A stretch of DNA of 64,000 bases from an uncultured Maribacter sp. (GTDB lineage: Bacteria > Bacteroidota > Bacteroidia > Flavobacteriales > Flavobacteriaceae): the NCBI RefSeq assembly GCF_947496775.1, contig NZ_CANMDU010000013.1, positions 1 through 64,000 on the forward strand, in the 5' to 3' direction. This document shows, piece by piece, positions 29,211 through 54,826 of this stretch. Under the pieces are notes generated by a model. That model ran no database searches. It saw nothing but the letters and a program-made list of their open reading frames with translations, and had not been told where the DNA came from. The translations under genes were made by a program, and so were the position numbers. The number at the start of each line of letters is the position of its first letter. The first letter of the stretch is position 1.

Positions 29211-31007
29211 TTAATCATTAAGCTTTAATACAGCCATAAATGCTTCTTGGGGTACTTCTACATTACCTACTTGGCGCATACGTTTTTTACCTTTCTTTTG
29301 TTTCTCTAAAAGCTTACGTTTACGAGAAATATCACCACCATAACATTTTGCAGTAACATCTTTACGCAATGCTTTTGTTGTTTCCCTAGAAATTATTTTG
29401 GCACCAATGGCAGCTTGTATAGGAATATCAAACTGTTGTCTTGGTATTAGTTCTTTTAGTTTTTCACACATTTTTTTACCAATAGTAACCGCATTATCTG
29501 CGTGTATTAGCGCTGATAAGGCATCCACTGGTTGTGCATTAAGTAAAATATCTACACGTACTAATTTAGAAGTTCGCATACCAATTGGAGCATAATCAAA
29601 AGAAGCATATCCTTTGGAAACTGTTTTTAAACGATCATAAAAATCAAAAACAATTTCGGCTAATGGCATATCAAAATTAAGCTCTACTCTTTCCGTAGTT
29701 AAATAGGTTTGGTTAGTAATTTGCCCTCTTTTTTCAATACATAAGGACATTACATTACCAACAAAATCTGCTTTAGTAATTATGGTTGCTTTTATATATG
29801 GCTCTTCTACACGATCAATACTAGAAGGATCTGGTAAATCTGTTGGATTATTTACAATTAAAGGAGTCTCAGGTTCTTTTCTTGTATACGCATGGTAACT
29901 AACATTGGGTACAGTGGTAATAACCGTCATATTAAACTCACGCTCTAAACGTTCTTGAATAATTTCCATGTGTAGCATTCCAAGGAATCCACAGCGAAAA
30001 CCAAAACCAAGAGCAGCACTACTTTCCGGAGCAAAAACCAAGGAAGCATCATTAAGCTGTAACTTCTCCATAGAGGCACGTAACTCTTCAAACTCGTCTG
30101 TATCTACTGGATAAATACCAGCAAATACCATTGGTTTTACGTCTTCAAAACCTTCAATTGCGTTTTTTGTAGGTTTTGCAGCGTCTGTAATTGTATCTCC
30201 AACTTTTACTTCTCTAGCATCTTTAATACCGGTAATTAAGTATCCAACATCACCAGCTTTGATACTTTTTTGAGGGTGTTGTACTAATTTTAAAGTACCA
30301 ACCTCATCCGCAAAATAATCTTTATCTGTAGCTACAAATTTTATTTTTTGCCCTTTTTTAATTTCTCCGTTGATAACTCTGAAATAGGTTTCTACACCTC
30401 GGAAAGGATTATATACAGAATCGAAAACTAAAGCCTGTAAAGATTCCTCTAAATTTCCTTCAGGTGCAGGCACACGTTCAATAATAGCAGCAAGTATTTC
30501 TTCTATACCTATTCCAGTTTTTGCACTTGCTGGAATTACTTCTTCTGCATCACATCCCAAAAGATCTACAATATCATCCGTAACCTCTTCTGGACTTGCA
30601 CTAGGTAAATCTACTTTATTAAGAACAGGGATTATCTCTAAATCATTCTCTAGCGCTAAATACAAATTAGAGATGGTTTGTGCCTGTATACTCTGTGCAG
30701 CATCTACAACTAAAAGAGCACCTTCACAAGCAGCAATGGAACGAGAAACTTCATAAGAAAAATCTACGTGGCCAGGGGTATCAATTAAATTAAGAATGTA
30801 CTCTTCTCCCTTATAGGTATACTCCATTTGTATAGCATGACTCTTTATTGTAATACCACGTTCTCGTTCTAAGTCCATACTATCTAGTAGCTGTTCTTTT
30901 TTTTCACGATCGGTTACGGAGCCAGTAAAATCTAACAATCGATCCGCTAATGTACTTTTACCGTGATCAATATGTGCAATAATGCAAAAATTTCTAATAT
31001 TCTTCAT
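29211..31007 (-). CDS. lepA: Elongation factor 4 (LepA GTPase)
   Basis: The 598-residue translation GTPase has G1 '[15 protein letters not shown]', switch region '[11 protein letters not shown]', G3 'DTPGHVDF' and G4 'NKVDLP'. The EF4-specific C-terminal domain has '[23 protein letters not shown]', a LepA hallmark, and the protein ends '[13 protein letters not shown]'. It acts on ribosomes in the cytoplasm, back-translocating or assisting assembly under stress. Upstream, a small inverted repeat (TACCAG/CTGGTA, 31038-31057) could be a regulatory hairpin in the leader. Confidence 0.97.
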
Positions 31008-33672: not shown

Positions 33673-33888
33673 TTAATATGCTCCCATTAATCCGCCGCAA
33701 ACGCCTAAACTTACTAGTAAATAAATACCTGCTAGTATAAAAAGCACTTTTCCCGCTTTATACTTTCTTTTACTTCTTAAAATAAACCCTATTATTAATA
33801 ATAAGATTGCTGGCCCAAACATTAGGGCAAAAAGAAATGCAACTAGGCCATCTAAATTACCAACTTCTAAGGGTAGAGTTATATTCAT
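33673..33888 (-). CDS. Small two-segment membrane protein, third gene of the radical SAM operon
   Basis: The 71-residue protein has two membrane segments (about 17-37 and 48-69) flanking a basic loop 'LRSKRKYKAGK'. There is no recognisable family. Its ATG overlaps the stop of the radical SAM gene by 4 bp (ATGA), so it is translated from the same message. A role as a membrane partner or scaffold for the upstream enzymes is inference. Confidence 0.65.
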   Translation of the reverse strand: MNITLPLEVGNLDGLVAFLFALMFGPAILLLIIGFILRSKRKYKAGKVLFILAGIYLLVSLGVCGGLMGAY

Positions 33889-35279
33889 AATATTTCGTTT
33901 TGTAGTTCTTCTAAGCGTTTTAATTTATCATCTCTATAAAAAAGGTTCATAGTTTCAAACGGTATAATTTTATAATCTTTATTTACGATATGCACGCAAG
34001 ATTTTTTAATAGCCCTTACATCAAAATTATGTGCATCGATAAATTGCATAATTATAATTCTAAAAAGATTATCATAGCCTAAATTAGGAGCATCAATTTC
34101 TGGTAAACAACACATAATGCTTTTTAAATTTTCCTCTGCTTTTTCTACAGAATTTCCAGTACTAAAAAGGTCTATCATTTTACCATGTAGCTCAGGGTCT
34201 TGCTCATAAATTATGGTGTTTTTACCTTCATTTAATAAATCTTCGGGGTTTATGTACCGTGTTAAAGGACTTACGTTATTACCTAATTTTAAAGCATAAG
34301 CCATTACTAAGGCATCTGGATTACAAGGAACAGGAATTAAATCATCGGGCTCAAAAATTGGGGATTGCTCTAAAATTTTTCTTCGAACTTCGGTTAGGGT
34401 TATTCTATTTTCATCTGCTTCAAAATTATCTAGCCTACCAGCTATTTGTGTGGGCTGAAAAGTAACCCCGCGCACACATTTTTGTTTCAGAACAAAATCA
34501 ATTGTTTTGCCCATTTCATGGTCATTAAGTCCTTTTTGTAGGGTAACTACAAGCGTTGTAGAGAGGTTTAATTTATTTAAGTGTTCTAAGGCTTTTAATC
34601 TTGTTTCTGCTAAATCTGCACCACGCAAGGTCCGTAAAACGGTATTCTCTAAAGAATCAAACTGAAGATAGATTTCAAAATCAGGAGCATAGCTAGCCAA
34701 GCGCTTTGCAAACTCAAAATCTTTAGCAATTTTAATTCCATTGGTATTTAGCATTAAATGCCTTATAGGAAGTGTTTTTGCGTACTCTAAAATTTCAAAA
34801 AATTGAGGATGTATCGTAGGCTCCCCACCACTAAGTTGTACTACATCTGGTTCTCCTTCATTTTTTACAATAACATCGAGCATTTTTTTTACTTCTTCCA
34901 AAGTTCTATGCCTACCATAACTTGGAGATGAAGAAGCATAACAAGTGGGGCAGGTTAAATTACAACGATCCGTAAGTTCTACAACGGTAAGGCATGAGTG
35001 TTGCTCATGATCTGGGCAAAGACCACAATCATAAGGGCAGCCGTAATGTGTTTTGGTATTAAAAGTTTTTGGATATTCTGAAACCTTGTTATAGTTTCTT
35101 ATGTTTTTATAGTATTCAATATCATCCGCTATTAATACTTTAGAACGACCGTGCTCTTTGCAATTTTTGAGCATATATACATTCTCATTTTCAAAAACTA
35201 TTTTGGCATCTACCCTACGTAAACATTCAGGACATAGGCTTAATGTAAAATCATAATAGGTGTAATTTCTTTCCGGCAT
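33885..35279 (-). CDS. Radical SAM enzyme of the Tes/MJ0619-like type
   Basis: From the ATG at 35279 (MPERNYTYYDF) the product is 464 residues. The cluster-binding motif is CNLTCPTC (Cys106, 110, 113). Before it lie Cys16, 19, 40, 81, 85, 88 and 96 in the pattern CPEC...C.EHG...GCPYDCGLC..H...C. This arrangement is known from archaeal tetraether lipid synthase (Tes) and the MJ0619 pterin methylase, which carry additional iron-sulfur clusters. 'LSGGEPTIHPQF' is the SAM 'GGEP' motif. The C-terminal part (DAHNFDVRAIKKSCVHIV...IIPF) also matches that group. A C-C or C-methyl forming reaction on a lipid or cofactor is inferred. The gene overlaps the Lgt-like gene by 29 bp and the small membrane-protein gene by 4 bp. 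Confidence 0.85.
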   Translation of the reverse strand: MPERNYTYYDFTLSLCPECLRRVDAKIVFENENVYMLKNCKEHGRSKVLIADDIEYYKNIRNYNKVSEYPKTFNTKTHYGCPYDCGLCPDHEQHSCLTVVELTDRCNLTCPTCYASSSPSYGRHRTLEEVKKMLDVIVKNEGEPDVVQLSGGEPTIHPQFFEILEYAKTLPIRHLMLNTNGIKIAKDFEFAKRLASYAPDFEIYLQFDSLENTVLRTLRGADLAETRLKALEHLNKLNLSTTLVVTLQKGLNDHEMGKTIDFVLKQKCVRGVTFQPTQIAGRLDNFEADENRITLTEVRRKILEQSPIFEPDDLIPVPCNPDALVMAYALKLGNNVSPLTRYINPEDLLNEGKNTIIYEQDPELHGKMIDLFSTGNSVEKAEENLKSIMCCLPEIDAPNLGYDNLFRIIIMQFIDAHNFDVRAIKKSCVHIVNKDYKIIPFETMNLFYRDDKLKRLEELQNEIL

Positions 35280-36021
35280 ATTGTATTCCTTGAAGTATTG
35301 TTTTATAGTAGTATAGTACACAAATTAGGCATAAATATTGAATACTACTAAGCTCTAAAAATAGAAATGCATTTGGTTTTAGAAATTCTATGAAGAATCT
35401 AAAAATAAAATAACTAATCATAAAGATTTTGAAAAGCATTCCATTTTCTAACGTATTCTTTTTAATAAGGTTTTTTAAAAAGGCCAATAGGAAAATTAGA
35501 AATACTATTTCATATAACGCTATGGGGTGTCTTAAATATTCATCACCCAAATACATTCCAAGAAAAGTATTAGTAACAATACCATAAGTAAACTCATTGG
35601 TGCCTGTTAAAAAACAACCTAAACGACCAATGATAAGCCCTACAATTATGGGTAATGTAAAAAGGTCTCCAGAAGATGTTTTTTCGCCTATATATTTTTT
35701 AATCAACTCTACCCCTAAAAGGCCACCAAATAGGCCACCCATTATTGTTTTATTGTTTAGAATAGAAAGCCACCCTTGGTTATAATGTAGTACAGGGTTT
35801 TCAAAAAAAGCAACAAACCTAGATAAGAATAAAGCTCCAAAAATAGCACCAATAATTATTGATAAGCGGTTTGTAGACGATATTAAATCGGAGCTTTTTT
35901 TGCGTAAAAAGCGGTAGTATTGAAAGCCAATAAAAAAAGCTAAGTACTCTAAGATTAGGTGCATATTAATCTTTATTCCAAAGAGAATAGGTTCATACGG
36001 AATAGAAAAGCTTAAAAACAT
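35251..36021 (-). CDS. Lgt-like (prolipoprotein diacylglyceryl transferase family) membrane protein
   Basis: From the ATG at 36021 (MFLSFSIPYEPILF) the product is 256 residues with about seven membrane segments. Family landmarks are visible in order: 'IMGGLFGGLLGVE' (93-105), 'GRLGCFLTG' (132-140), 'RHPIALYE' (164-171) and 'RFFIEF' (208-213). Against canonical Lgt, the His of the HGGL motif is Met94, the essential Asn of the GRxGNF motif is Cys136, and the following Glu is replaced. It is thus probably a paralogue with altered chemistry rather than the housekeeping enzyme. It is first in a leftward operon with the Tes-like radical SAM gene, overlapping it by 29 bp. Confidence 0.75.
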   Translation of the reverse strand: MFLSFSIPYEPILFGIKINMHLILEYLAFFIGFQYYRFLRKKSSDLISSTNRLSIIIGAIFGALFLSRFVAFFENPVLHYNQGWLSILNNKTIMGGLFGGLLGVELIKKYIGEKTSSGDLFTLPIIVGLIIGRLGCFLTGTNEFTYGIVTNTFLGMYLGDEYLRHPIALYEIVFLIFLLAFLKNLIKKNTLENGMLFKIFMISYFIFRFFIEFLKPNAFLFLELSSIQYLCLICVLYYYKTILQGIQYAGKKLHLL

Positions 36022-36082: not shown

Positions 36083-37078
36083 ATGCCAAAAATTGGAGAC
36101 ATACAATTACCAGATTTCCCGTTATTACTTGCACCTATGGAAGATGTAAGTGACCCACCTTTTAGAGCTTTGTGTAAGGAACAAGGAGCAGATGTGGTTT
36201 ATACCGAGTTTATTTCTTCGGAAGGACTAATTCGTGATGCTGCAAAAAGTGTAATGAAGTTAGATATTTATGAAAAAGAACGCCCAGTAGGGATTCAAAT
36301 ATTTGGCGCTAATTTAGATTCTATGCTACGCTCTGTAGAGATAGTAGAAAAATCTAACCCAGATATTATAGATATTAACTTTGGTTGTCCTGTAAAAAAA
36401 GTAGTTAGTAAAGGTGCTGGAGCAGGAATTTTAAAAGACATAGATTTAATGGTGTCTTTAACCAAAGCCATGGTAGAACATACCAAGCTGCCTATTACGG
36501 TAAAAACCAGATTAGGGTGGGATGAGAGTTCTATTAAAATTGTTGAGGTTGCAGAACGCATACAAGATGTTGGCTGTAAAGCAATAGCCATTCATGGTAG
36601 AACTAGAGCGCAGTTGTATAAAGGAGATGCGGATTGGAAACCTATTGCCGAGGTAAAAAATAACCAAAGAATGCATATTCCTGTATTTGGAAATGGTGAT
36701 GTAAACACCCCAGAAGCTGCTGTAAAAATGCGCGATGAATATGGTTTAGATGGGGCAATGATTGGGCGAGCAAGTATTGGGTATCCTTGGTTTTTTAAAG
36801 AAGTAAAACACTTTATAAATACAGGAACGCATTTAGAACCACCAACTATGGAAGAACGTGTTACAGCCGCACGTAGGCATTTACAAATGTCTATAGATTG
36901 GAAGGGTGAAAAATTGGGTGTTTTTGAAACCAGAAGACACTACACAAATTACTTTAAGGGCATTCCAGACTTTAAAGAATATAGAATGAAAATGGTTACT
37001 AGTGATGCTTCTAAAGATGTCTTTGCTACTTTTGATGAGGTTCTAGAAAAATTTGGAAATTATCAGTTTGTTAGATAG
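36083..37078 (+). CDS. dusB: tRNA-dihydrouridine synthase
   Basis: The 331-residue FMN enzyme has the Dus signature 'LLLAPMEDVSDPPFRALCKEQGADVVYTEFIS' at the N-terminus. It also shows 'GIQIFGAN', 'IDINFGCPVKKVVSKGAGA' (catalytic Cys in GCP), 'AIAIHGRTRAQLYKGDADW', 'VFGNGDV' and 'GAMIGRASIGYPWFF'. It reduces specific uridines in the D-loop of tRNAs. DusB is the closest subtype by these motifs. The gene is divergent from the Lgt-like operon and convergent with the ThuA-domain gene (3 bp between stops). Confidence 0.93.
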   Translation: MPKIGDIQLPDFPLLLAPMEDVSDPPFRALCKEQGADVVYTEFISSEGLIRDAAKSVMKLDIYEKERPVGIQIFGANLDSMLRSVEIVEKSNPDIIDINFGCPVKKVVSKGAGAGILKDIDLMVSLTKAMVEHTKLPITVKTRLGWDESSIKIVEVAERIQDVGCKAIAIHGRTRAQLYKGDADWKPIAEVKNNQRMHIPVFGNGDVNTPEAAVKMRDEYGLDGAMIGRASIGYPWFFKEVKHFINTGTHLEPPTMEERVTAARRHLQMSIDWKGEKLGVFETRRHYTNYFKGIPDFKEYRMKMVTSDASKDVFATFDEVLEKFGNYQFVR

Positions 37079-41456: not shown

Positions 41457-41466
41457 ATCCTTGGTT

Positions 41467-42669
41467 ATGGCTACTGATAAACAGGATTTATACAACGTTA
41501 AGGATCCAAAAAAGAAAACCATCTATGATTATACAATGGAATACTTGGAAACGAAGTATGACGTGATGTATAACGAGATTTCACACGATTTTCAGATTGC
41601 TTTTAAAGATTCCAGGAATTGGCATTACCTTAATCTTAATTCATTAATTATAGAATTGACCAAGGCGGGTATCGATATTAGTACGAGTAAATTAGAAATT
41701 CTCATGCGATCTGAATGGATACCTAAATACAACCCAATCAAGGAGTATTTTGAATCTCTTCCAAAATGGGATGGTGTAGATTATATATTGAAATTAGCAT
41801 CCTATGTGCCTACTTACGAAAAAGAAGCTTTTGTGTATCATTTTAGAAAATGGTTGGTAAGGTCTATTAAGTGTGCATTGGAATCAAGTTATTTCAACAA
41901 ACAAGCGTTTATTCTTTCTCATATGGGGCAAAATTCTGGAAAATCTACTTGGTGCAGATTTTTATGTCCTCCAGAACTTTCCGAATTTATGGCTGAGGAT
42001 ATCAGTAATGATAAAGATGCACGAGTACAATTGTGCAGAAACTTTTTATACAATCTGGATGAATTAGCGGTTCTATCAAAAAAGGATGTGAATGCATTGA
42101 AATCTTTTTTCTCCAAAACCTTTATCAATGAACGATTACCATATGACAGAAAGAACACTACACTACCAAGAATATGTTCCTTTCTTGGTTCTACTAATAT
42201 GTCCTCTTTTCTAAACGATGAAACAGGTTCGGTAAGGTGGCTTTGTTTTGAATTGATAGACAAAATTGACTTTGCCTATTCAAAAGAAATCAATATTAAA
42301 GATGTTTGGACGCAAGCTTATCACTTGGCATACCATGACCCAACTTTTAATCCTGAATTAAGTATTAATGATATCAAGGAAAATGAAGAGCGTAATAAGA
42401 AATACACCAAACTAAGCTCTGAACAGGAGTTGATTGCCAAGTATTATGAGAAATCTAATGACATGGAAGACTTTGTTACTGCTTCTGATGTTCTGGTGTC
42501 TATGTCTTGCCTTAATCTTCGATTGAACCATATTAATATTGGCAGAGCTTTATCCGGGTTTAAGTTTCAGAAAGTGAAACACCCTAAAAGACAGGTATAC
42601 GGTTATTTAGCTAAACCTCGCTTTAAGGATTCTCCTTGGGAAATGGAATTTTCAAAAAAGCAAGAATAA
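41467..42669 (+). CDS. VapE/VirE-type P-loop replication protein
   Basis: The 400-residue protein has the virulence-associated E fold. The Walker A variant is 'MGQNSGKSTWCRFL'. Before it lies 'NPIKEYFESLPKWDGVDYI', the characteristic NPxxxYLxxLxWDG-like motif. Walker B is in 'YNLDELAVLSKKD', and 'RICSFLGSTNMSSFLNDETGSVRWLCF' holds the Asn/Arg finger region. Such proteins are primase/helicase-like ATPases of integrative elements and satellite phages. The start is ATG 41467; a TTG lies two codons earlier. Confidence 0.85.
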   Translation: MATDKQDLYNVKDPKKKTIYDYTMEYLETKYDVMYNEISHDFQIAFKDSRNWHYLNLNSLIIELTKAGIDISTSKLEILMRSEWIPKYNPIKEYFESLPKWDGVDYILKLASYVPTYEKEAFVYHFRKWLVRSIKCALESSYFNKQAFILSHMGQNSGKSTWCRFLCPPELSEFMAEDISNDKDARVQLCRNFLYNLDELAVLSKKDVNALKSFFSKTFINERLPYDRKNTTLPRICSFLGSTNMSSFLNDETGSVRWLCFELIDKIDFAYSKEINIKDVWTQAYHLAYHDPTFNPELSINDIKENEERNKKYTKLSSEQELIAKYYEKSNDMEDFVTASDVLVSMSCLNLRLNHINIGRALSGFKFQKVKHPKRQVYGYLAKPRFKDSPWEMEFSKKQE

Positions 42670-42672
42670 CAC

Positions 42673-42852
42673 TTACCTACTTACCTGAAAGATATAATAG
42701 TAATAATACAGGGTGTGTTTTTAGGTAAGATGCTTAAAACCTATTCTACCTAATGATTACCTAACCTACCCAAAAGTGTAGGATAGGTAAGACTATTTAC
42801 TGAGTTAATGTGATGGGAATCCCCATGTATAGGCTTAATGGTAGGAAGGTAA
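42673..42852. repeat. Cluster of TTACCT/AGGTAA motifs (possible iterons)
   Basis: The gap between the VapE and primase-like genes carries TTACCT at 42673, 42681 and 42757, TACCTAA at 42747, and the reverse complement AGGTAA at 42723, 42785 and 42847. Seven short copies in both orientations within 180 bp, between two replication genes, would fit a replication origin or a regulator site. Confidence 0.5.
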
Positions 42853-42877
42853 GAGAAATTACAAAAAGTAAAAGCAA

Positions 42878-43735
42878 ATGAAAAAAGAAATAATGAATTG
42901 CGAAAAAGCCCGTAGTCTTTGCGTCGTTAAAATACTTGCAAAACTAGGACATTTTCCCAATCGGAAAACGGAAAAAGAAGCTTGGTTTCTAAGTCCTTTC
43001 AGGTCAGAAACACAAGCCTCTTTTAAGGTCTCTTTAAAACAAAACTACTGGATTGACTTTGGAACTTTTGAGGGAGGCAATGCAATAGATTTGGTAGTTA
43101 AATTAAACCACTGTTCTGTAAAGGAAGCACTAACTATTTTATCAAACGATATGAGTGATGTTTATGTTCAACAACATTCATTTTTGGAATTGGAAAAAGA
43201 AACAGGAAAATTAGAAATCCTAAAAGTGCAGCTTATTCAACATCAGGCATTAATTAACTATTTGAAGTCAAGAAAAATACCACTGCAAATAGCTAAACGA
43301 TACTGTAAAGAGGTTTGGTATAGAAATAACGAAAAAACACTTTTCGCTCTTGGACTCAAAAATCAGTTAGACGGATGGGAACTTCGAAACAAATATTATA
43401 AAACGTCTACCACACCTAAATCTTATAGTTATTTCAATAACGGAAATGAAAACCTAATGATTATTGAAGGGATGTTTGACTTACTCTCTTTACCAGTTTT
43501 ATTAAATAAGGATTTTCATGAGCATGACTTGATTGTTCTTAATTCAGTGGCATTTGTAAAACGTGTTGGTCTTTTGCTAAAAAGCTATACAACTATCAAA
43601 CTGTGTTTAGATAACGATATTTCAGGAGATAAGGCAACAGAATATTTATTAAATGTTTTTCCTTCTACTATTGATTGTAGAGAAATTTATAAAGCTCATA
43701 AAGATGCTAATGAAAAATTGATGTTATGGGATTAG
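42878..43735 (+). CDS. Primase-like protein (CHC2-type zinc region plus Toprim-like domain)
   Basis: The 285-residue protein has an N-terminal part resembling DnaG zinc-binding domains ('FLSPFRSETQASFKVSLKQNYWIDFGTFEGGNAIDLVVKL'). A C-terminal Toprim-like region has 'NENLMIIEGMFDLLSLP' (the Glu motif) and 'IKLCLDNDISGDKATEYLL' (the D-x-D motif). It would make primers or act as a topoisomerase-type module for element replication. Its stop overlaps the mobC-like start by 10 bp. Confidence 0.82.
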   Translation: MKKEIMNCEKARSLCVVKILAKLGHFPNRKTEKEAWFLSPFRSETQASFKVSLKQNYWIDFGTFEGGNAIDLVVKLNHCSVKEALTILSNDMSDVYVQQHSFLELEKETGKLEILKVQLIQHQALINYLKSRKIPLQIAKRYCKEVWYRNNEKTLFALGLKNQLDGWELRNKYYKTSTTPKSYSYFNNGNENLMIIEGMFDLLSLPVLLNKDFHEHDLIVLNSVAFVKRVGLLLKSYTTIKLCLDNDISGDKATEYLLNVFPSTIDCREIYKAHKDANEKLMLWD

Positions 43736-44250
43736 AATACGATGACAGAGATGAAAACTTTGATTGGGTAGAACGAAAATCAGAAGAACGGAAAAACAAA
43801 ATACAACTTACTACCAAACAGTTAGAAGATAGCGATTTTTTAATACTTCAGCTAGGCGAGGAAGATTCGGTGCAAACGAATTCGAGATGTGTGTCTGTGG
43901 ACACAAACTCGATTACTCCCGATGGTCGCAATGAAAAAAAAAGGGTGTTTAAAGGGAAAACAGAACTGATTAAATTCCGATGTACATCACTAGAAAAGAA
44001 ACTATTGAAGAATCGTGCAAGACGATGTGGATTGACTCTTAGCGAATATTTTAGAAGGGTTGCTTTTGAAAAAAAGATAACCGAACGCCTGACGGAAGAT
44101 GAGATTACTATTTATAGGACTCTAGTAAAATTCCACAACAATTTTAAAGCAATAGGAAACATGTATCGAAAACGTAATCCTCATTTAACTGAAAAAGTGT
44201 ATTGGTTGGCTGACGAAATAAAAGACCATCTTCAAAAGTTCTCACCATGA
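43726..44250 (+). CDS. MobC-like mobilization accessory protein
   Basis: The 174-residue basic protein contains 'TELIKFRCTSLEKKLLKNRARRCGLTLSEYFRRVAFEK' (about residues 84-121), the ribbon-helix-helix plus 'S-E-Y-x-R' pattern of MobC/MobB relaxosome proteins. 'NFKAIGNMYRK' follows. It would bind the transfer origin and help the relaxase. It overlaps the relaxase start by 4 bp. Confidence 0.83.
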   Translation: MGLEYDDRDENFDWVERKSEERKNKIQLTTKQLEDSDFLILQLGEEDSVQTNSRCVSVDTNSITPDGRNEKKRVFKGKTELIKFRCTSLEKKLLKNRARRCGLTLSEYFRRVAFEKKITERLTEDEITIYRTLVKFHNNFKAIGNMYRKRNPHLTEKVYWLADEIKDHLQKFSP

Positions 44251-45110
44251 TTGGAAAAGGAATGGCTATTGCCCACACCAAAGCTTCTATGTCTTATGGA
44301 TGGAATCAGGAAAAAGATGCTGAAGTAGTTTTTAAACAGGAATTGATAGGCAACAACCCTGAAGAAATAACACAGGAATTTAAAATGCTCCAGGATCAAA
44401 ATTATCATTGCCAAAAGAACACGCTTTCTTTTGTTCTTAGCCCAACTGTAGAAGATGGGAAACGATTGAAACTAAAAGATTTTGAAAAAGTATGTCAAAA
44501 ATTTATGGAACAGATGAAACTAGGAGAACGACAAGCGATTGCCTTTGTTCATAGAGATAAACAGCATACTCACATTCATTTATACGTAAATCGGATTGAT
44601 TATAAAGGAGTAGCTTATAACGATAGTTTTATTGGAAAACTAAGTCAACAAGCAGCGGAAAAGGTAGCGGAACAATTGCAGTTGACAACTGTAAAGCAAG
44701 TGCAAATGGAAAAGGAGTTCTTACTCCAAGACGTTAGACAGGAAATAAAGCGAAGACATGAACTTACATTAAAACAATTTACACCCAAGAATTTCGAGGA
44801 TTATATCAAATCGATGGAGACTAATGGGGTAAAAGTAATTCCTAGTATTAATAAAGGGGGAAAGCTCCAGGGATTTCGATTCGAATTCAATGGCTATAAT
44901 TTAAAAGGTAGTGAGGTACACCGGAGTATGACTGGAAGTAATATTGGGCAACAGTTGTATAGTCAATCCAATACCAAAATAAAAAGTATAGCACCCGTAA
45001 AAATATTAAATAATGCAGTTCCTGTAGCTCCAAGATTGGCAATTAGTATTCTAAAGAAAATTGCTAAAAAAACAATAAAATACACCATTGATGCAGGGCT
45101 AGGAATTTAA
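44247..45110 (+). CDS. Relaxase/mobilization nuclease
   Basis: The 287-residue protein has the MobA/VirD2-type metal site HTHIHLYVNRID with His107, His109 and His111. Tyr16 in the N-terminal 'TKASMSYGW' motif is the likely nicking tyrosine. It nicks the element at its transfer origin and pilots the strand into the recipient. At under 300 residues it lacks the C-terminal helicase or primase domains of larger relaxases. Together with the MobC-like protein it makes the element mobilizable but not self-transmissible. Confidence 0.88.
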   Translation: MIGKGMAIAHTKASMSYGWNQEKDAEVVFKQELIGNNPEEITQEFKMLQDQNYHCQKNTLSFVLSPTVEDGKRLKLKDFEKVCQKFMEQMKLGERQAIAFVHRDKQHTHIHLYVNRIDYKGVAYNDSFIGKLSQQAAEKVAEQLQLTTVKQVQMEKEFLLQDVRQEIKRRHELTLKQFTPKNFEDYIKSMETNGVKVIPSINKGGKLQGFRFEFNGYNLKGSEVHRSMTGSNIGQQLYSQSNTKIKSIAPVKILNNAVPVAPRLAISILKKIAKKTIKYTIDAGLGI

Positions 45111-45120
45111 ACACTATATC

Positions 45121-45486
45121 ATGATAAAGATTAAAGAATATATTGAATTGCTAACGTCTGAAATGGAAGTTCTCCGAGATGATGTCAACCGATTGGAAAC
45201 CATCAACGACCACATGAAGGATGTAAAGATTTCTATCGACCTGAAGGAGATCAAAGAAGTTTTAAAAGAGCATAGTAAGCAATTAGAGGATCAAAGGGAA
45301 CAACAGGAACGATTTTACAATCGAATGGAATCCTTATTTAAGACAGCTGGGGTATACCCTAAATGGGCGGTTATCACGTTTATTGTAGCTATTCTTTTTT
45401 CTGTAACTTCATTGGTTTATGTCTATCATACAAAGGTCGTTTCAGAAAGAACTTCTGATATTACTATTGAGAAAAGAACTCCATGA
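45121..45486 (+). CDS. Coiled-coil, single-segment membrane protein downstream of the relaxase
   Basis: The 121-residue protein has a long heptad-rich helix (about residues 8-75, many Glu/Lys/Leu). One membrane segment follows (about 80-102, 'WAVITFIVAILFSVTSLVYVYH'), with a short polar tail. Similar small proteins often accompany Bacteroidota mob genes. It begins 10 bp after the relaxase stop, so it is probably part of the mob operon. The function is unknown. Confidence 0.7.
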   Translation: MIKIKEYIELLTSEMEVLRDDVNRLETINDHMKDVKISIDLKEIKEVLKEHSKQLEDQREQQERFYNRMESLFKTAGVYPKWAVITFIVAILFSVTSLVYVYHTKVVSERTSDITIEKRTP

Positions 45487-45575
45487 TTAATTGATTTTTA
45501 TGTATTCAGAAGTTTAGTAATTTTGAACGATAGATAGTAAAAAATGCTACTTAGCTCGCATTTCTTCTAATAGAA

Positions 45576-45660
45576 TTGTCCCAAATAATTACTATTTTCG
45601 GGACAATTATTGCAGTATTTTAATTATATTTGTCCCGATTTTTATCTATTTTTGGGACAA
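45576..45660. promoter_or_regulatory. Duplicated operator TTGTCCC-N17-GGGACAA
   Basis: Two copies of the inverted repeat occur: 45576-45582/45600-45606 and 45630-45636/45654-45660, each with a 17-bp spacer and 54 bp apart. The second overlaps the candidate -7 box and the start codon of the AbiEi-like gene. AbiEi-type antitoxins repress their own promoter by binding inverted repeats, so this is the likely autoregulatory site. Confidence 0.8.
45625..45632 (+). promoter_or_regulatory. -7 element of the AbiE/type I RM operon
   Basis: TATATTTG matches TAnnTTTG and overlaps the left half of the second operator copy. No TTG lies at the consensus distance, which would suit a regulated rather than constitutive promoter. 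Confidence 0.55.
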
Positions 45661-46241
45661 TGATGGATTTTAATACCATACAAAAGAAAATTAAACCTGG
45701 AGAAATATTCTTTATTTCAGATTTTATCGAGCTTGGAAATTACGAAGCAATTCGAAAATCTTTACAACGCTTAACGAAGGATGATAGCATAAAACGCATT
45801 GCAAAAGGAATATATTTTTTACCCAAAATACACAAGCGCTTAGGGGTTATTTATCCTCATGCTGAACAAATAGCCAAAGCTATTGCAAAACGTGATAAGG
45901 CACGGATAATAGCCACGGGTTCTACAGCTTTAAATTTATTGGGGTTATCTACTCAAATCCCATTGAAAGTAGTGTTCTTAACAGATGGTTCTGCTAGGAA
46001 CATAAAAGTCGGAAATCAAACTATTCAGTTTAAAAAGACAAACCCTAAAAATTTAAGCATTGAGCATAGATTAACCAATCTTATAATTCAGGCATTAAAA
46101 GAAATTGGAGAAAAACATGTTACTCCAGAACAGCTTGATAAAATACAGAGGATAATAGAAAAGAGTAAAGAACAAGAAATAGTTTATAAAAATCTAAATA
46201 ATGCACCTATTTGGATTCAGAAAATAATAGTAGATAAATGA
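45660..46241 (+). CDS. AbiEi-like antitoxin / autoregulator (DUF6088-type)
   Basis: The 193-residue protein has an N-terminal winged helix (about residues 15-55, 'IFFISDFIELGNYEAIRKSLQRL' and 'IKRIAKGIYFLPK'). A C-terminal antitoxin domain includes 'IATGSTALNLLGLSTQIPLKVVFLTDG'. This is the type IV AbiEi antitoxin layout, usually paired with an AbiEii toxin as here. The ATG at 45660 was chosen because the longer TTG start at 45630 lies inside the operator. It overlaps the toxin gene by 4 bp. Confidence 0.87.
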   Translation: MMDFNTIQKKIKPGEIFFISDFIELGNYEAIRKSLQRLTKDDSIKRIAKGIYFLPKIHKRLGVIYPHAEQIAKAIAKRDKARIIATGSTALNLLGLSTQIPLKVVFLTDGSARNIKVGNQTIQFKKTNPKNLSIEHRLTNLIIQALKEIGEKHVTPEQLDKIQRIIEKSKEQEIVYKNLNNAPIWIQKIIVDK

Positions 46242-47221
46242 ATAACTGGTTAACATTATCAAAAGAAGAGCAAACAGAATTGTTTACTCAAATTGGTGTA
46301 AAAACCAATTTACCTCCACAGGCTATAGAAAAAGATGCTTGGGTTACATTAATGTTACGAATGATATTCACTTCAGGTTTAGCCAATCATTTAATTTTCA
46401 AAGGAGGAACTTCATTGAGTAAAGCTTTTAATTTAATTCAACGGTTTTCAGAAGATATTGATTTAGGTATTGACAGACAATACTTGGGGTTTGAAGGGGA
46501 TTTGTCAAAAGGGCAAATTCGAAAATTAAGAAGAGCCTGCCACTCTTTTGTTTCTAAAGATTTATCCGAATTGTTAAGACAACAATTAATAGCATACGGG
46601 TTAGATGAAACCCTATTTGAAATTATAGTAGAAAATACACAGGTGTCTGATCAAGATCCAGAAACTATTAAAGTGAACTATCAGTCACTATTTGGAGATT
46701 TGCCTTATCTACCTACAAGAGTATTGATTGAGGTTAGCGCTAGGTCGTTAATTGAACCCAATCAAGAAGTTGCTATTAAATCAATAATTGATGAACATTA
46801 TCATGAAGCAGATTTTTCGGAAGAAGAATTTATTGTGAATGCCACTAACCCTCAAAAGACATTTTTAGAAAAACTCATTCTCCTTCATGAAGAGTTTCAA
46901 AAACCTCCAGAGAAAATAAGGCATTTACGTATGTCAAGGCATTTCTATGATATTGGGCAAATACTAAATTCTGAATATGGGCAGGCTGCTTTGAAAAATA
47001 CATCTCTTTTTGAAAGTATAATTACTCATAGAAGTGTGTTAACCCCAATGAAAACTACGGATTATGAAAGTTTGACTTTACAAAGTCTTAATGTTATTCC
47101 GCCAAAAGAATTCTTGGATAACTACAAATCTGATTATAAAGAAATGCAAAATAGTATGATACATGGTGAATCATTGGGTTTTGATGTACTACTTAAAAAT
47201 ATTATGAACGAATTGAAATAA
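46238..47221 (+). CDS. AbiEii/AbiGii-family nucleotidyltransferase toxin
   Basis: The 327-residue protein has the nucleotidyltransferase signature GGTSLSK at 56-62 and 'SEDIDLGID' at 71-79 (metal-binding acidic pair), preceded by 'AIEKDAWVTLMLRMIF'. AbiEii toxins transfer nucleotides to targets such as tRNA and cause growth arrest that limits phage spread. The AbiEi-like protein encoded just upstream should repress and neutralise it. The hsdM gene begins 3 bp after its stop, an unusual continuation into a restriction operon. Confidence 0.88.
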   Translation: MNNWLTLSKEEQTELFTQIGVKTNLPPQAIEKDAWVTLMLRMIFTSGLANHLIFKGGTSLSKAFNLIQRFSEDIDLGIDRQYLGFEGDLSKGQIRKLRRACHSFVSKDLSELLRQQLIAYGLDETLFEIIVENTQVSDQDPETIKVNYQSLFGDLPYLPTRVLIEVSARSLIEPNQEVAIKSIIDEHYHEADFSEEEFIVNATNPQKTFLEKLILLHEEFQKPPEKIRHLRMSRHFYDIGQILNSEYGQAALKNTSLFESIITHRSVLTPMKTTDYESLTLQSLNVIPPKEFLDNYKSDYKEMQNSMIHGESLGFDVLLKNIMNELK

Positions 47222-47224
47222 AGA

Positions 47225-48817
47225 ATGTCTGAAGATCATAAAAAAGAATTAAAAAAGCAGCTTTGGAATATTGCTGATACACTTAGAGGCAAAATGAATG
47301 CGGATGAATTTCGCGATTATATTTTAGGATTCATTTTCTATAAGTACTTAAGTGAAAAGATGGAAATTTTCGCCAACGAAATATTGAAACAAGACAAAAT
47401 AAAGTTTCGAGAAATAAACCCTTCAATGCCTGATTTTGATGAATATTTAAAGGCCATCAAAGAAGAAGCATTAGAACAACTAGGTTACTTCTTAAAACCT
47501 GAAGAATTGTTTTCTGAAGTAGCTGTAAGAGGTAAAGGAGAAAACAATGAAGACGATCATTTTGATGAAGAAAAAACAGGTTTCATATTAGAGGATGTAC
47601 AAAAAATATTGCTCAATATTCAATTGAGCACTATGGGTACAGATAGTGAGGAAGATTTTGACAATCTCTTTGAAGATATGGATTTGAACAGTACCAAACT
47701 GGGTAAAACTCCTGAAGCTCGAAATACCATTATTGCCAAAGTTTTAACTCACCTTGATAAAATTGATTTCAAATTAGAACATACTGAACTAGATGTACTA
47801 GGAGATGCCTATGAGTATTTGATTGGGCAATTCGCAAGTAATGCTGGTAAAAAGGCAGGTGAATTTTATACCCCTCAGGAAGTTTCTATGATCTTGGCAA
47901 AGATTGTAACTACAGGTAAACAGAAACTAAAGTCTGTTTATGATCCAACTTGCGGATCAGGTTCTCTATTACTTCGTGTGGCAAAGGAAGTAGATGATGT
48001 GGGGGATTTTTACGGACAAGAAATGAATCGTACCACATATAACTTGGCACGAATGAATATGATTTTGCACGGTGTGCATTACCGTGAATTTGATATTAAG
48101 CAAGAAGACACCTTGGAGAGGCCACAGCACATTGATATGGAATTTGAAGCCATTGTAGCTAACCCTCCATTCTCCGCAAAGTGGAGTGCTAATCCATTAT
48201 TTACAAGTGATGACCGTTTCAGCCAATATGGTAAACTAGCTCCTAGTAGTAAAGCAGATTTTGCCTTTGTGCAACACATGATTCACCACTTAGCTGAAAA
48301 CGGAACAATGGGTATTATTTTACCTCATGGTGTATTATTTAGAGGTTCGGCAGAGCAACACATTAGAAGGTATTTAATTGAAAATAAAAATTACTTGGAT
48401 GCTGTAATTGGCTTACCAGCCAACATTTTCTATGGAACGAGCATCCCAACTTGTATTTTGATTTTTAAAAAATGTAGAGAAAACCCTGATGATGTCTTGT
48501 TTATTGATGCGAGTAATGAGTACGAAAAAGCTAAAAACCAAAACCAGCTTAAAGATAAACATATTAATAAAATAGTTGAGACTTACCGTAACAGAAATGA
48601 GTTAGAAAAATACAGTCATAAAGCTACCTTAAAAGAAATTGCTAAAAACGATTACAACCTGAACATACCTCGGTATGTTGATACATTTGAGGAGGAACCT
48701 GATATTGATATAGAAGCTATTGCCAAAAAAATAAGTAAAGTGGATGATTCTATGGTTGGTATTGATAAAATAATAGAACAATTCTGTAAAGATCTTAAAA
48801 TCACAGCACCTTTTTAG
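47225..48817 (+). CDS. hsdM: Type I restriction-modification DNA methyltransferase subunit
   Basis: The 530-residue protein has the HsdM N-terminal helical domain ('ELKKQLWNIADTLRGKMNADEFRDYILGFIFYKYLS'). AdoMet motif I appears in 'YDPTCGSGSLLLRV' and the N6-adenine catalytic motif NPPF at 313-316. The C-terminal part ends '...GIDKIIEQFCKDLKITAPF'. With HsdS it methylates adenines in a bipartite recognition site; with HsdR it forms the restriction complex. It sits directly after the toxin gene. Confidence 0.95.
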   Translation: MSEDHKKELKKQLWNIADTLRGKMNADEFRDYILGFIFYKYLSEKMEIFANEILKQDKIKFREINPSMPDFDEYLKAIKEEALEQLGYFLKPEELFSEVAVRGKGENNEDDHFDEEKTGFILEDVQKILLNIQLSTMGTDSEEDFDNLFEDMDLNSTKLGKTPEARNTIIAKVLTHLDKIDFKLEHTELDVLGDAYEYLIGQFASNAGKKAGEFYTPQEVSMILAKIVTTGKQKLKSVYDPTCGSGSLLLRVAKEVDDVGDFYGQEMNRTTYNLARMNMILHGVHYREFDIKQEDTLERPQHIDMEFEAIVANPPFSAKWSANPLFTSDDRFSQYGKLAPSSKADFAFVQHMIHHLAENGTMGIILPHGVLFRGSAEQHIRRYLIENKNYLDAVIGLPANIFYGTSIPTCILIFKKCRENPDDVLFIDASNEYEKAKNQNQLKDKHINKIVETYRNRNELEKYSHKATLKEIAKNDYNLNIPRYVDTFEEEPDIDIEAIAKKISKVDDSMVGIDKIIEQFCKDLKITAPF

Positions 48818-48819
48818 AA

Positions 48820-50034
48820 ATGGCAAAACAAAAAAACATACCCAAGCTGCGTTTTCCTGAGTTCAATGAAGATTGGAGTAAAGGTTCTTTAGAAAAAAAG
48901 AATTTCTCAAAAGGAAAGGGTATTTCTAAAGCTGACATAGCCGAAAATGGCGAGACGGCATGCATTAGATATGGAGAGCTTTATACGACATACGGAGAAA
49001 CAATAGATGAAGTAGTTTCGAGAACAAATGTTGATAAAAATGAATTAATACTTAGCGAAGCAAATGATGTAATTATTCCAGCATCTGGTGAATCTCAACT
49101 AGATATTGCTACAGCATCTTGTGTTTTAAAATCAGGAATTGCTTTAGGTGGGGATTTAAATATTATAAAGACAGAAAACAATGGTGTTTTTCTTTCCTAT
49201 TATTTGAACAGTAAAAAGAAAATTGAGATAGCAAGATTGGCACAAGGGATATCGGTAGTACATCTTTATTCAACGCAATTATCTCAGTTGGAATTGTTGC
49301 TTCCAAAAATACCAGAACAAACCAAGATAGCTTCTTTCTTCTCTACTATTGACAAAAAAACACAAGCACTCAAAAACAATAAAGAGTTATTGGAAGAATA
49401 CAAGAAAGGGGTTTCTCAAAAATTATTCTCTCAAGCTATTCGATTTAAAAATGATAAAGGGAAAGATTTTCCTGAATGGGAGGAATTAGAGCTTTCAGAG
49501 TTTTTAATTCCAACACTTAGAGAGGTATCAACTCCAAAAGATAAGTATCTAGCAATTGGAATTAGAAGTCATTGTAAAGGCACATTTCAAAAACCAAACT
49601 CAGACCCATCAAAAATTTCAATGGATAAACTCTTTACTGTAAAGGAAAATGACTTGATTGTCAATATCACTTTTGCTTGGGAAGGAGCCATTGCCCTAGT
49701 AAAAAAGAAAGATGAAGGAGGGCATGTCTCACATAGATTTCCAACATATACATTTAATAGAGACTTAGTTATTCATGAATTTTTTCAATTTGTTTTTGTC
49801 CAAAAAGAATTTCGAAATATTCTTGATTTAATTTCTCCTGGAGGTGCTGGTAGAAACCGAGTATTAAGTAAAAAAGAGTTTCTAAAAATTAAATGGTTTT
49901 TTCCTAAAGTAGATGAGCAAACCAAAATAGCTGACTTTCTATCTTCTATTGACAAAAAAATAGGATTAATAGATAAAAAGTTGAACGATACGGAGCAATG
50001 GAAAAAAGGATTATTACAAAAAATGTTTTGTTAA
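48820..50034 (+). CDS. hsdS: Type I restriction-modification specificity subunit
   Basis: The 404-residue protein has two target recognition domains (about residues 10-155 and 210-360), each followed by a conserved helical spacer. The spacers read 'PEQTKIASFFSTIDKKTQALK' (about 166-186) and 'DEQTKIADFLSSIDKKIGLID' (about 366-386). It determines the two half-sites of the recognition sequence, which cannot be read off. The DNA encoding the two spacers is closely similar and exactly 600 bp apart, allowing exchange of recognition domains. Confidence 0.93.
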   Translation: MAKQKNIPKLRFPEFNEDWSKGSLEKKNFSKGKGISKADIAENGETACIRYGELYTTYGETIDEVVSRTNVDKNELILSEANDVIIPASGESQLDIATASCVLKSGIALGGDLNIIKTENNGVFLSYYLNSKKKIEIARLAQGISVVHLYSTQLSQLELLLPKIPEQTKIASFFSTIDKKTQALKNNKELLEEYKKGVSQKLFSQAIRFKNDKGKDFPEWEELELSEFLIPTLREVSTPKDKYLAIGIRSHCKGTFQKPNSDPSKISMDKLFTVKENDLIVNITFAWEGAIALVKKKDEGGHVSHRFPTYTFNRDLVIHEFFQFVFVQKEFRNILDLISPGGAGRNRVLSKKEFLKIKWFFPKVDEQTKIADFLSSIDKKIGLIDKKLNDTEQWKKGLLQKMFC

Positions 50035-50037
50035 GCT

Positions 50038-50673
50038 ATGAAGCAAACTAAAGACATCTTGGAGCAATTAGAAGCTGAATATAGCAACATTGATTATTAT
50101 AATATTATTATTGATAAGATTGAAAACAATGTAAACGATAATCCTGATATCGCTATTGAAAGTTGCAAGGCACTTTTAGAAGGTATTTCAAAATTTATTT
50201 GGAATCAAGTTGATAGTGCTTATGATTCAGCAGTAGCAGACAAAATGGATTTTCATCCTTTAGTCAGAAAATCTATGAATAAATTGGCAGAGTTTAATGA
50301 GGATATAGAAATAGATTTTGTCAATAAAATCAATAAACTCATTGTTTCTATTGGAGAATTAAGAAATAGAAGAGGTGATATTTCTCACGGTAAGCTATCC
50401 CCTAAAGATTATTTCAGCGATTCCCAGTTTTCAAACTTAGTGATGAATATTACTGATAATATGCTTCATTATGTTTTGCATTGTTTTTCCAAAGTAAAAG
50501 CTGTAAAAGAGTTAGCATATGAAGATAACCCTGAATTCAATGAAAAATTAGATACCGAAAATGATTTTGGCTTTTTAAGCTACAGTAAAGCATTGTTTGA
50601 ACAAGATATAGTTGCTTATGAGCAAGAACTACAAGATTATCTAGAAACATTAGAATTGGAAGAACATGAGTAA
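50038..50673 (+). CDS. Abortive-infection-like protein inserted between hsdS and hsdR
   Basis: The 211-residue soluble protein has an N-terminal helical segment ('IAIESCKALLEGISKFIWNQV') and 'SIGELRNRRGDISHGK' (about residues 110-125). The latter resembles the RNxxGDxxHG motif of the abortive infection C-terminal (AbiJ/RloA-like) domain. Such domains are found in phage-exclusion proteins, possibly HEPN-like RNases. It is co-directional and overlaps hsdR by 8 bp, so it is translated with the restriction subunit. Confidence 0.72.
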   Translation: MKQTKDILEQLEAEYSNIDYYNIIIDKIENNVNDNPDIAIESCKALLEGISKFIWNQVDSAYDSAVADKMDFHPLVRKSMNKLAEFNEDIEIDFVNKINKLIVSIGELRNRRGDISHGKLSPKDYFSDSQFSNLVMNITDNMLHYVLHCFSKVKAVKELAYEDNPEFNEKLDTENDFGFLSYSKALFEQDIVAYEQELQDYLETLELEEHE

Positions 50674-53572: not shown

Positions 53573-53614
53573 GAATAGCACTGTATAAATTTAGATTTTT
53601 GAGAATGAATTGAG

Positions 53615-54826
53615 TTAGAGCAATATCTCACTAGCTTCATCAATAACACGACTTTCCAACTCTTTTAAATAAGATTGGGTTACAGTCAAATTTTTGTGTC
53701 CCATAGATTCACTTATTATGTCTGTGGCTACACCTTTTTGTTTAAGACAATTGGCAAAACTATGACGAGCGACATAGCTACTCATGGGTTTATTAATTTG
53801 GCACATAGCAGCAATTTTTTTCAAATCTTGGTTATAACGAACTAACATTTTGTGCTTTCTGTTTTCTAACTGAGTGGGCGTATAGTCTTCTCTAAAGAGA
53901 ACAGGGAATACATAAGAGGTATGCGGATTTATATCCTTATAATAATCTAAAATCTTTTGAACAGGCTCTAATATTTTGATAGAGAAATTACCTTTTGTTT
54001 TAGACCTAGTATAATGAATCCTATCATAGCTAACATCTTTCCACCTCAGTTTAATCATATCAGCAAAATTCATTCCTCGTGTGTAGAAGCTAAAGATGAA
54101 ATAATTTTGGGCATTTATTAATGTTGGATAATCTTCAAGATTTATATGTGTAATTTTCGTAACCTCGTCCATCGTTAAAGCCTTTTTTATGGCTTTTCCT
54201 TTAAGCTTAGATAATTTGTAAGTTCTAAACGGGTAATAGCCTTCCTTGGTTATGTTACGTTGAATTGCAAAATTAAAAAGCGCACGTATAGATCTCATTC
54301 GTACTCCAATTCCTCCATCAGTACCGCCGCGAGATCTTAAAAAAACCTCATACTTAATTAAAAAAGTTGGTGTTATTTCTTTAAATGATAGTCTTTCTTT
54401 TTGATGAAATAGTTTTACAGAGTTTAAGGCTTCAGAGTTTACTTTGGCATTTCCTGTTCGCCCTGCTTCATTCATTTCATCAATGATTTCTTTCCAAAAA
54501 GAAAAAACCTCTTTTTGACGAGCTGGATTGGAATCAACCCTAAAATGTTTTTCAAAATCTTCTAGAGTAAAATCTTCGGTCTCTATCTCTAAATTGCCAT
54601 AAATCTTCAGAGCTCTATCCAGAATTTTATTTAAAAGGCGATTATTCTGAATATAATTTGCATTTCGTTTATTGAATTGACCGCCTTTTAAATCCCATTC
54701 ATTTTCTGGAATACTGAAAAGAGTTTTAAAGTATTTAGTGCGTCTATCTTTGGTCACTCTCAAACAAACAGGAAAGTGGCCATTGGCTAGTGATTTTTTT
54801 CGTAAAATTGTCTTGATAGAAGCCAT
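53615..54826 (-). CDS. Tyrosine recombinase (integrase) of the element
   Basis: The 403-residue protein has an N-terminal arm-binding domain ('MASIKTILRKKSLANGHFPVC'), a SAM-like core-binding domain (about residues 105-190) and a catalytic domain. Catalytic residues visible are Arg250 ('YTRGMNFAD'), Arg354 ('YVARHSFAN'), His377 ('MGHKNLT') and nucleophile Tyr386 ('TQSYLKEL'). It integrates and, with a directionality factor, excises the element at the tRNA. Its start codon lies 12 bp from the right subterminal repeat, so the integrase may regulate its own promoter. Confidence 0.93.
   Translation of the reverse strand: MASIKTILRKKSLANGHFPVCLRVTKDRRTKYFKTLFSIPENEWDLKGGQFNKRNANYIQNNRLLNKILDRALKIYGNLEIETEDFTLEDFEKHFRVDSNPARQKEVFSFWKEIIDEMNEAGRTGNAKVNSEALNSVKLFHQKERLSFKEITPTFLIKYEVFLRSRGGTDGGIGVRMRSIRALFNFAIQRNITKEGYYPFRTYKLSKLKGKAIKKALTMDEVTKITHINLEDYPTLINAQNYFIFSFYTRGMNFADMIKLRWKDVSYDRIHYTRSKTKGNFSIKILEPVQKILDYYKDINPHTSYVFPVLFREDYTPTQLENRKHKMLVRYNQDLKKIAAMCQINKPMSSYVARHSFANCLKQKGVATDIISESMGHKNLTVTQSYLKELESRVIDEASEILL

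Follow-up and report, generated by a model that had tools for sequence, protein, structure and literature searches.

A conserved three-gene unit of Tes-like radical SAM, Lgt-like and small cysteine-tailed membrane proteins in Maribacter and other bacteria

Tetraether synthase (Tes, also GDGT-MAS; MJ0619, Protein Data Bank entries 7TOL and 7TOM) is a radical S-adenosylmethionine (SAM) enzyme that couples two unreactive saturated carbons, a chemistry established for archaeal lipids. According to passages of Lloyd et al. (2022; PMC9433317), Tes acts on free phospholipids, its pocket is a lipid channel, and its bacterial homologues belong to organisms that are not known to form such chains; passages of a second paper propose these homologues for branched bacterial tetraethers (PMC8941075). 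Lgt is the enzyme that attaches diacylglycerol to lipoproteins, and residues Y26, H103, N146, R143 and R239 are reported as essential in the Escherichia coli protein (passages of PMC4728403, PMC8689077 and PMC13251419). Here we describe a unit that joins relatives of these two enzymes to a small cysteine-tailed membrane protein. It lies in a stretch of 64,000 nucleotides (nt) from an uncultured Maribacter sp. (contig NZ_CANMDU010000013.1, positions 1 to 64,000), which we call the window. The trio looks like an undescribed system by which lipids are attached or modified.

A sequence-only reading of the window had proposed a lipid or lipoprotein tail-modifying system and considered the trio undescribed. 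We too found no description among the papers listed in searches of the open-licence literature, which lacks most subscription papers and preprints, so absence from print is unproven; the passages of Zeng et al. (PMC8941075) on bacterial Tes homologues hold no such system with Lgt-like and small-protein genes. The same reading had listed Tes and MJ0619 as separate precedents, with MJ0619 methylating a pterin. This was mistaken: MJ0619 is Tes, and in the passages concerned Lloyd et al. were unable to corroborate pterin methylation (PMC9433317).

Linkage and co-occurrence of the three genes

The trio is encoded by three overlapping minus-strand genes (Table 1). The stop of the Lgt-like gene (35251) falls inside the radical SAM gene, for which we took the ATG at 35279 as the start, and the two overlap by 29 nt. 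The small gene begins at 33888 and the radical SAM gene stops at 33885, an overlap of 4 nt. Hence, the layout given in the sequence-only reading was borne out on the sequence in coordinates and in both overlaps.

We compared 92 loci. The window is one of them, 11 are relatives that were fetched, and the other 80 are the best of at least 582 matching stretches found when GTDB representatives were scanned. An Lgt-like gene was present at 90 of the 92, and both exceptions (L103 and L124) begin at a contig edge. Its end lay within 40 nt of the start of the radical SAM frame in 74 of these 90 loci; in L097, the two genes are more than 3 kb apart. At least one small protein with a cysteine tail was found at 91 of the 92 loci. 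By a strict count that required it directly downstream, the figure was 89 (66 loci with one copy, 21 with two and 2 with three), so that tandem paralogues occur in 23 of 92. Two of the strict-count zeros do carry the protein: L040 has it between the Lgt-like and radical SAM genes, and in L038 the open frame starts too far upstream for the rule. The 4-nt overlap of the window is the commonest arrangement (41/92). Relatives whose radical SAM proteins are 68 to 94% identical carry the genes together, the best named match, among those listed, being Maribacter vaceletii at 94%.

The same association was seen in genome surveys. Among 247 genomes of the class, 12 (the window's own included) had a strong radical SAM homologue, at 68 to 83% identity in the other 11, and in all 12 the Lgt-like gene adjoined the radical SAM gene or lay within about 500 bases of it. 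Both genes were found in 12 of the class genomes, the radical SAM gene without the other in none, the Lgt-like gene without the other in 1, and neither in 234; 10 genomes with matches of only 40 to 67 bits were left out of this radical SAM type. Across 395 genomes of the phylum, with cut-offs of at least 398 bits for the radical SAM protein and at least 151 bits for the Lgt-like profile, the corresponding counts were 31, 0, 1 and 363 (Fisher p 2.8e-45, relatedness ignored). A radical SAM match at E 1e-40 occurred in 34 of the 395: the 31 of this type and three weaker ones (170 to 202 bits; G297, G322 and G516), which we kept apart. In G322, an Lgt-like gene (66 to 68 bits) is linked to the weaker radical SAM gene; neither G297 nor G516 showed an Lgt-like gene. 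Weak Lgt-like matches (59 to 72 bits) were present in nine further phylum genomes, G322 among them.

The small protein follows the two enzymes. Using a profile that includes the window's own protein, we searched 28 genomes and obtained a strong match at the operon in 14 of the 14 that have it and no match (E 0.001) in the 14 of the same family that do not. In the genomes tested, the small protein is thus exclusive to the system. No gene family besides the trio recurred in more than 3 of 13 neighbourhoods compared, in which neighbours were not individually annotated. The joint recurrence of the genes is far beyond chance, and we conclude that the three nearly certainly form one conserved unit. 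The sequence-only reading had itself named lack of joint conservation in other genomes as grounds for abandoning its proposal; the counts (90/92 and 91/92 loci; 31, 0, 1 and 363 genomes) exclude this.

The radical SAM and Lgt-like proteins beside Tes, TrsS and Lgt

The radical SAM protein (P0001) scores above the cut-off with Pfam Radical_SAM (98.1 bits against 29.5) and with the MJ0619/HMPTM zinc ribbon model (70.2 bits against 27), as does the Lgt-like protein (P0002) with Pfam LGT (78.1 bits against 24.9). The family assignments made from the sequence alone therefore hold. P0001 matched the solved Tes structure 7TOL over residues 11 to 334 and 400 to 452 (E 3.7e-69) and matched Tes by profile at E 1.7e-80. 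An AlphaFold2 model built from 29 sequences was weak (predicted local distance difference test [pLDDT], 66); its first fold match was still Tes, and we draw nothing from it beyond that match. The likeness to Tes noted earlier stands: P0001 is similar to both Tes and TrsS along its length. True membership in the Tes family is another matter. The best full-length NCBIfam score of P0001 was to the radical SAM (seleno)protein TrsS (NF045646), at 326.6 bits against a cut-off of 490, and its score to NCBIfam Tes was 286.6 bits against a cut-off of 450. Both fall under the curated cut-offs, which rules out true Tes or TrsS membership by that measure. SPASM-type models scored far under their cut-offs among the 25 matches listed of 60, so P0001 does not qualify as a maturase of ribosomally synthesized and post-translationally modified peptides. 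Grouping with an unrelated cofactor- or peptide-maturation clade, the second ground on which the sequence-only reading would have been given up, was not seen, but the nearest NCBIfam model is TrsS, for which we found no function.

The rubredoxin, N-terminal cluster and radical SAM motifs match those of Tes in pattern and spacing. A rubredoxin site of the form CX2CX20CX2H (C16/C19/C40/H43) was found at 90 of 92 loci, the misses being L035 and L124, both cut at the start. The N-terminal cluster motif, CX3CX2C plus His (C81/C85/C88/H91), was present at 92 of 92, as was the radical SAM pattern CNLxCxxC. Across 38 aligned rows, the rubredoxin, N-terminal cluster and radical SAM residues and the labile Met position M411 were invariant. 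Two loci were left out of alignments A1 and A3, L035 for an in-frame stop and L038 for its long, high-GC frames; L042, which scored 67 bits and whose fetched neighbours include no Lgt-like gene, was left out of the motif table and kept in the tree. The C-terminal cluster region is where the core clade departs from Tes. Met439 of Tes is retained as M411, whereas the CC...C of Tes reads S-C...E, and three cysteines that are absent from the Tes pattern (Cys319, Cys390 and Cys391) are invariant nearby.

In a tree of 29 rows, flagged for long branches, the Tes group was recovered at 98/98 and was split from the Lgt-associated side at 99/94. Twenty-three Lgt-associated proteins fell on one side of a branch with weak support (86/71). 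Because this branch is weak, the pairing of radical SAM and Lgt-like genes may have arisen in more than one step. Gene context also separates the system from its relatives. Its radical SAM gene accompanies an Lgt-like gene, whereas two Tes-type loci, L171 and L173 (NCBIfam Tes scores of 493.8 and 441.9 against the cut-off of 450), have no Lgt-like gene in their fetched stretches and none in their genomes at E 1e-15. Two TrsS-scoring relatives, from Mycolicibacterium vanbaalenii and a haloarchaeon and both under the TrsS cut-off, sit beside methyltransferase genes, with no Lgt-like gene annotated nearby. On the M. vanbaalenii plasmid (L190), the paired TrsS-like radical SAM and methyltransferase genes lie near CcdA, a disulfide oxidoreductase and another radical SAM gene.

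The Lgt-like protein also resembles its namesake and departs from it. Its AlphaFold2 model (pLDDT, 89) had a sole Foldseek match below E 0.001, E. coli Lgt (5AZB; TM score, 0.58). All 12 aligned Lgt-like proteins of the system have residues equivalent to R143, E202 and R239, with E or D at the E243 position. At the other essential positions P0002 differs: Y26 is replaced by His21, H103 by Met94 and N146 by Cys136. Its score to the NCBIfam Lgt model TIGR00544 was 45.6 bits, under the curated threshold of 118.9, which rules out true Lgt membership by that measure. The same genome encodes a canonical Lgt elsewhere that keeps the Tyr, the HG motif and the Asn. Among true Lgts, H103 varies, and N146C is present in distant ones, according to passages of PMC13251419. 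The second Lgt homologue of Mycobacterium smegmatis, MSMEG_5408, has the Y26H and N146C combination of the system (same source, same passages), and its membership is a lead only. We conclude that the Lgt-like protein is not a proven Lgt, as judged by its essential residues.

Might the operon be an ordinary second Lgt that merely supplies lipoprotein modification for local needs? Passing Pfam LGT agrees with this, but we consider it very improbable given the canonical Lgt elsewhere in the genome and the fact that, by profile, the Lgt-like proteins of the system are a group apart that goes with a single radical SAM type.

The small protein, its distant relatives and the genomic setting

No Pfam or NCBIfam model was passed by the small protein (P0003). 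Among 47 aligned small proteins, no column but G62 and C64 was invariant; the 111-amino-acid (aa) copy of L088 was left out of alignment A7. The profile gave 119 hits: a cysteine is present in 117, G-x-C lies within 40 residues of the end in 108, and 87 have a single cysteine. Both hits that lack it lie in loci with Cys-bearing copies: in L090 it is a Phe variant beside such a copy, and in L062 a 59-aa frame. A median of five residues follows the tail cysteine, and the residue before it is mostly I or V. Length varies from 54 aa upward in core loci to 368 aa in a Nonomuraea frame, with the tail kept. Between the Lgt-like and radical SAM genes of four Flavobacteriaceae loci (L058:4632-4835, L065:4657-4860, L074:4603-4806 and L077:4633-4833), we also observed a membrane protein of about 67 aa that has no G-x-C tail.

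Averaged over 106 small proteins, net charge was -1.0 for the ten N-terminal residues, +4.4 for the loop that precedes the last helix and 0 for the part beyond the cysteine. Since the loop is so positive, the positive-inside rule predicts that both ends of the protein are outside, with the cysteine at the outer face of the membrane. With an outer cysteine followed by a short tail, the last helix resembles a lipoprotein signal peptide moved to the C terminus. Two known or conceivable kinds of C-terminal signal were rejected. The NCBIfam model NF058595 (lipo-invert), a putative C-terminal anchoring domain, scored 12.8 bits against a cut-off of 37; it gave weak matches to 3 of 12 small proteins, and none of 296 phylum genomes exceeded the cut-off. 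A genome-wide C-terminal sorting tag was rejected because, in the 28 genomes, matches to the small-protein profile were confined to the operon, bar one weak match in G315 (E 5.7e-4). The small protein, as the carrier of an invariant cysteine encoded with an Lgt relative, appears to be the key piece of the unit, and this pairing points to protein lipidation. The sequence-only reading had overlooked this. Its pairing of the genes was right and its proposal of a lipid system is plausible, but the example it gave, cross-linking or branching of acyl chains, is not supported in that form: three residues essential in E. coli Lgt are replaced in the Lgt-like protein, and the C-terminal cluster region of the radical enzyme has cysteines other than those of Tes.

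The trio set exists in both Bacteroidota and Actinomycetota. Three deep loci of the same phylum (L165, L166 and L167) encode small proteins ending GPGSC or GPGAC, NGMC, and QGLC. In the distant clade L168 to L170, the order is radical SAM, an ICMT/PEMT-family protein, a DUF4395-family protein and Lgt-like, followed by a small protein whose end reads FGAC or FGSC. Pfam assigned ICMT/PEMT in L168 and L170 and DUF4395 in L170; the DUF4395 counterparts in the other loci were recognized by eye. Proteins of the ICMT/PEMT methyltransferase family act on lipid-type substrates, in keeping with lipid chemistry. L172 has the order Lgt-like, small protein ending GGMC, radical SAM. In L172 and L189, two distant lineages, the gene after the radical SAM gene encodes a membrane protein with a common RS[RK]CxLxDTRLVLAYL stretch, a possible fourth component.

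Among collected plasmids, neighbouring Lgt-like and radical SAM genes were found on those of Mycobacterium avium and M. branderi and on a Nonomuraea replicon, the mycobacterial genes being deposited as 'radical SAM protein' and 'prolipoprotein diacylglyceryl transferase family protein'. The tail recurs on these three actinobacterial replicons: small membrane proteins end in TAGIC, SAGYC, SGGLC, TVGVC or SAGIC plus a short tail, and the Nonomuraea frame has the same tail behind a long Pro/Gly-rich front. A Persicobacter plasmid carries the Bacteroidota form of the trio.

Table 1. Features of the three-gene unit in the window (aa, amino acids)
Feature	Position	Strand	Remarks
Lgt-like integral membrane protein gene, 256 aa	35251..36021	-	Pfam LGT; divergent subfamily
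Tes/TrsS-type radical SAM protein gene, 464 aa	33885..35279	-	Rubredoxin-like site, N-terminal cluster site, radical SAM domain, C-terminal cluster region
Radical SAM CX3CX2C motif, Cys106/Cys110/Cys113	34941..34964	-	Invariant in 38/38 aligned sequences
Small two-helix membrane protein gene, 71 aa; predicted N-out/C-out hairpin	33673..33888	-	Proposed lipid acceptor or partner
G-x-C tail motif codons, small protein Gly62/Val63/Cys64	33697..33705	-	G62 and C64 sole invariants in 47 sequences

Near the trio in the window lie lepA and a dusB-like gene (29211-31007 and 36083-37078; named by eye). A dusB relative was inside the fetched stretch in 42 of 92 loci and lepA in 28 of 92, which suggests a fixed chromosomal position of the trio in many flavobacteria. 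About 5 kb away from the trio is an apparent integrated mobile element (41461-54826) with a VapE-like protein, a relaxase, a DUF6088 and AbiEii-type pair, an HsdM/S/R type I restriction-modification system and a tyrosine recombinase.

Readings of the unit

The G-x-C tail, the Lgt residues that are kept (R143, E202 and R239) and the retained Tes motifs together underlie our preferred reading, in which the unit would build a lipidated protein. The small protein would sit in the inner membrane, its positive loop on the inner side and its last helix pointing outward, which would place the G-x-C cysteine at the outer face, as its charge distribution predicts. The Lgt-like enzyme keeps residues that in Lgt hold phosphatidylglycerol, with its catalytic or acceptor side changed; it would move a diacylglyceryl or related lipid group onto the cysteine of the small protein, or onto a partner held by it. 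On the cytoplasmic side, by analogy with its family, the Tes-like enzyme would use a 5'-deoxyadenosyl radical to abstract a hydrogen from the fatty chain of the lipid donor or of the lipidated protein, and the radical step would couple or modify that chain. This would yield a small membrane protein with a chemically unusual lipid tail. Whether the cysteine is the lipid site we judge evenly balanced, and we hold the same of the radical enzyme acting on a fatty chain. The joint model of lipid transfer to the cysteine followed by radical chemistry on the chain is tentative, and we think it somewhat more apt to fail as a whole than to stand. A more specific version seems rather unlikely: that a dedicated Lgt paralogue puts a lipid on the cysteine at the outer, C-terminal end of the helix, as in a lipoprotein built backwards, and that the Tes-family enzyme then joins or rebuilds the inert tails of this lipid, giving the small protein a membrane-spanning or cross-linked lipid anchor.

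Several observations weigh against lipidation of the small protein by this pair of enzymes. On the side of the radical enzyme, the structure model is weak (pLDDT 66), the C-terminal cluster has a changed cysteine pattern relative to Tes, an actinobacterial-type branch that keeps CC...C is without the N-terminal cluster cysteines, and no lipid role was found for TrsS, the best full-length model. On the side of the Lgt-like protein, the H103 position is Met, Val, Leu or Thr and the N146 position is Cys in 12 of 12 aligned system members, and the Y26 position is His in 10 of the 12 and Tyr in 2. The I or V that precedes the tail cysteine is unlike a normal lipobox. Nor is the linkage perfect. L123 has no small Cys-tail protein within about 1 kb. 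The Lgt-like and radical SAM genes of G272 and G486 are on different contigs, with co-presence kept, and in G272 (L164) no small protein was seen near either gene. G076 (L133) has a solitary divergent Lgt-like gene (274 bits), and its fetched stretch gave no radical SAM or small-protein profile match. Finally, the activity of MSMEG_5408, which shares the Y26H and N146C changes, is 'presumed low' in passages of PMC13251419.

Perhaps, then, the two enzymes make an unusual free lipid, with the small protein as a structural or chaperone subunit whose cysteine is catalytic or binds a ligand? Tes itself acts on free phospholipids (passages of PMC9433317), the small protein goes with the enzymes, and tandem copies could be subunits. 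However, an invariant cysteine at the predicted outer face beside an Lgt relative would be unusual for a subunit, and a length that ranges from 54 aa upward to 368 aa while the tail stays constant is more like a processed substrate. We regard a free-lipid product as rather unlikely.

It is also conceivable that the small protein is the substrate of the radical enzyme, which would form a thioether or C-C crosslink near the cysteine, with the Lgt-like protein as an accessory or anchor. Small genes beside a radical SAM gene, in tandem at 23 of 92 loci, do resemble those of precursor peptides. By the positive-inside rule, though, the cysteine would be outside, away from a cytoplasmic radical enzyme. 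In addition, the SPASM models are far under cut-off in the matches listed, P0001 resembles Tes over its length, and the 13 neighbourhoods show no constant exporter or protease gene, though, as noted above, neighbours there were not individually annotated and no family beyond the trio exceeded three. Maturation of a peptide is, in our estimation, unlikely.

In a redox or metal function, the tail cysteine would combine with the invariant Cys136 of the Lgt-like protein into a thiol relay or a site for metal, with no lipid transfer. The replacement of N146 by Cys throughout the 12 aligned system members fits this, as does the DUF4395-family protein with several cysteines that the distant clade adds. 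The phospholipid-binding arginines are nevertheless kept, and a pure redox protein would not need them; hence, this explanation is improbable.

Lipidation of the small protein with radical modification of the chain is thus the reading we prefer, at the tentative strength given above. Each enzyme belongs to a known superfamily; to these the present comparison adds the three-gene linkage, the co-occurrence, the conserved tail and the cofactor motifs. A Tes-like enzyme tied to an Lgt-type protein and a tiny cysteine-bearing membrane protein in many cultured bacteria supplies a definite candidate for the substrate, and what N146C-type Lgt paralogues and one bacterial Tes-like branch do thereby becomes open to direct test. 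If the preferred reading is true, the unit would represent a new form of protein lipidation.

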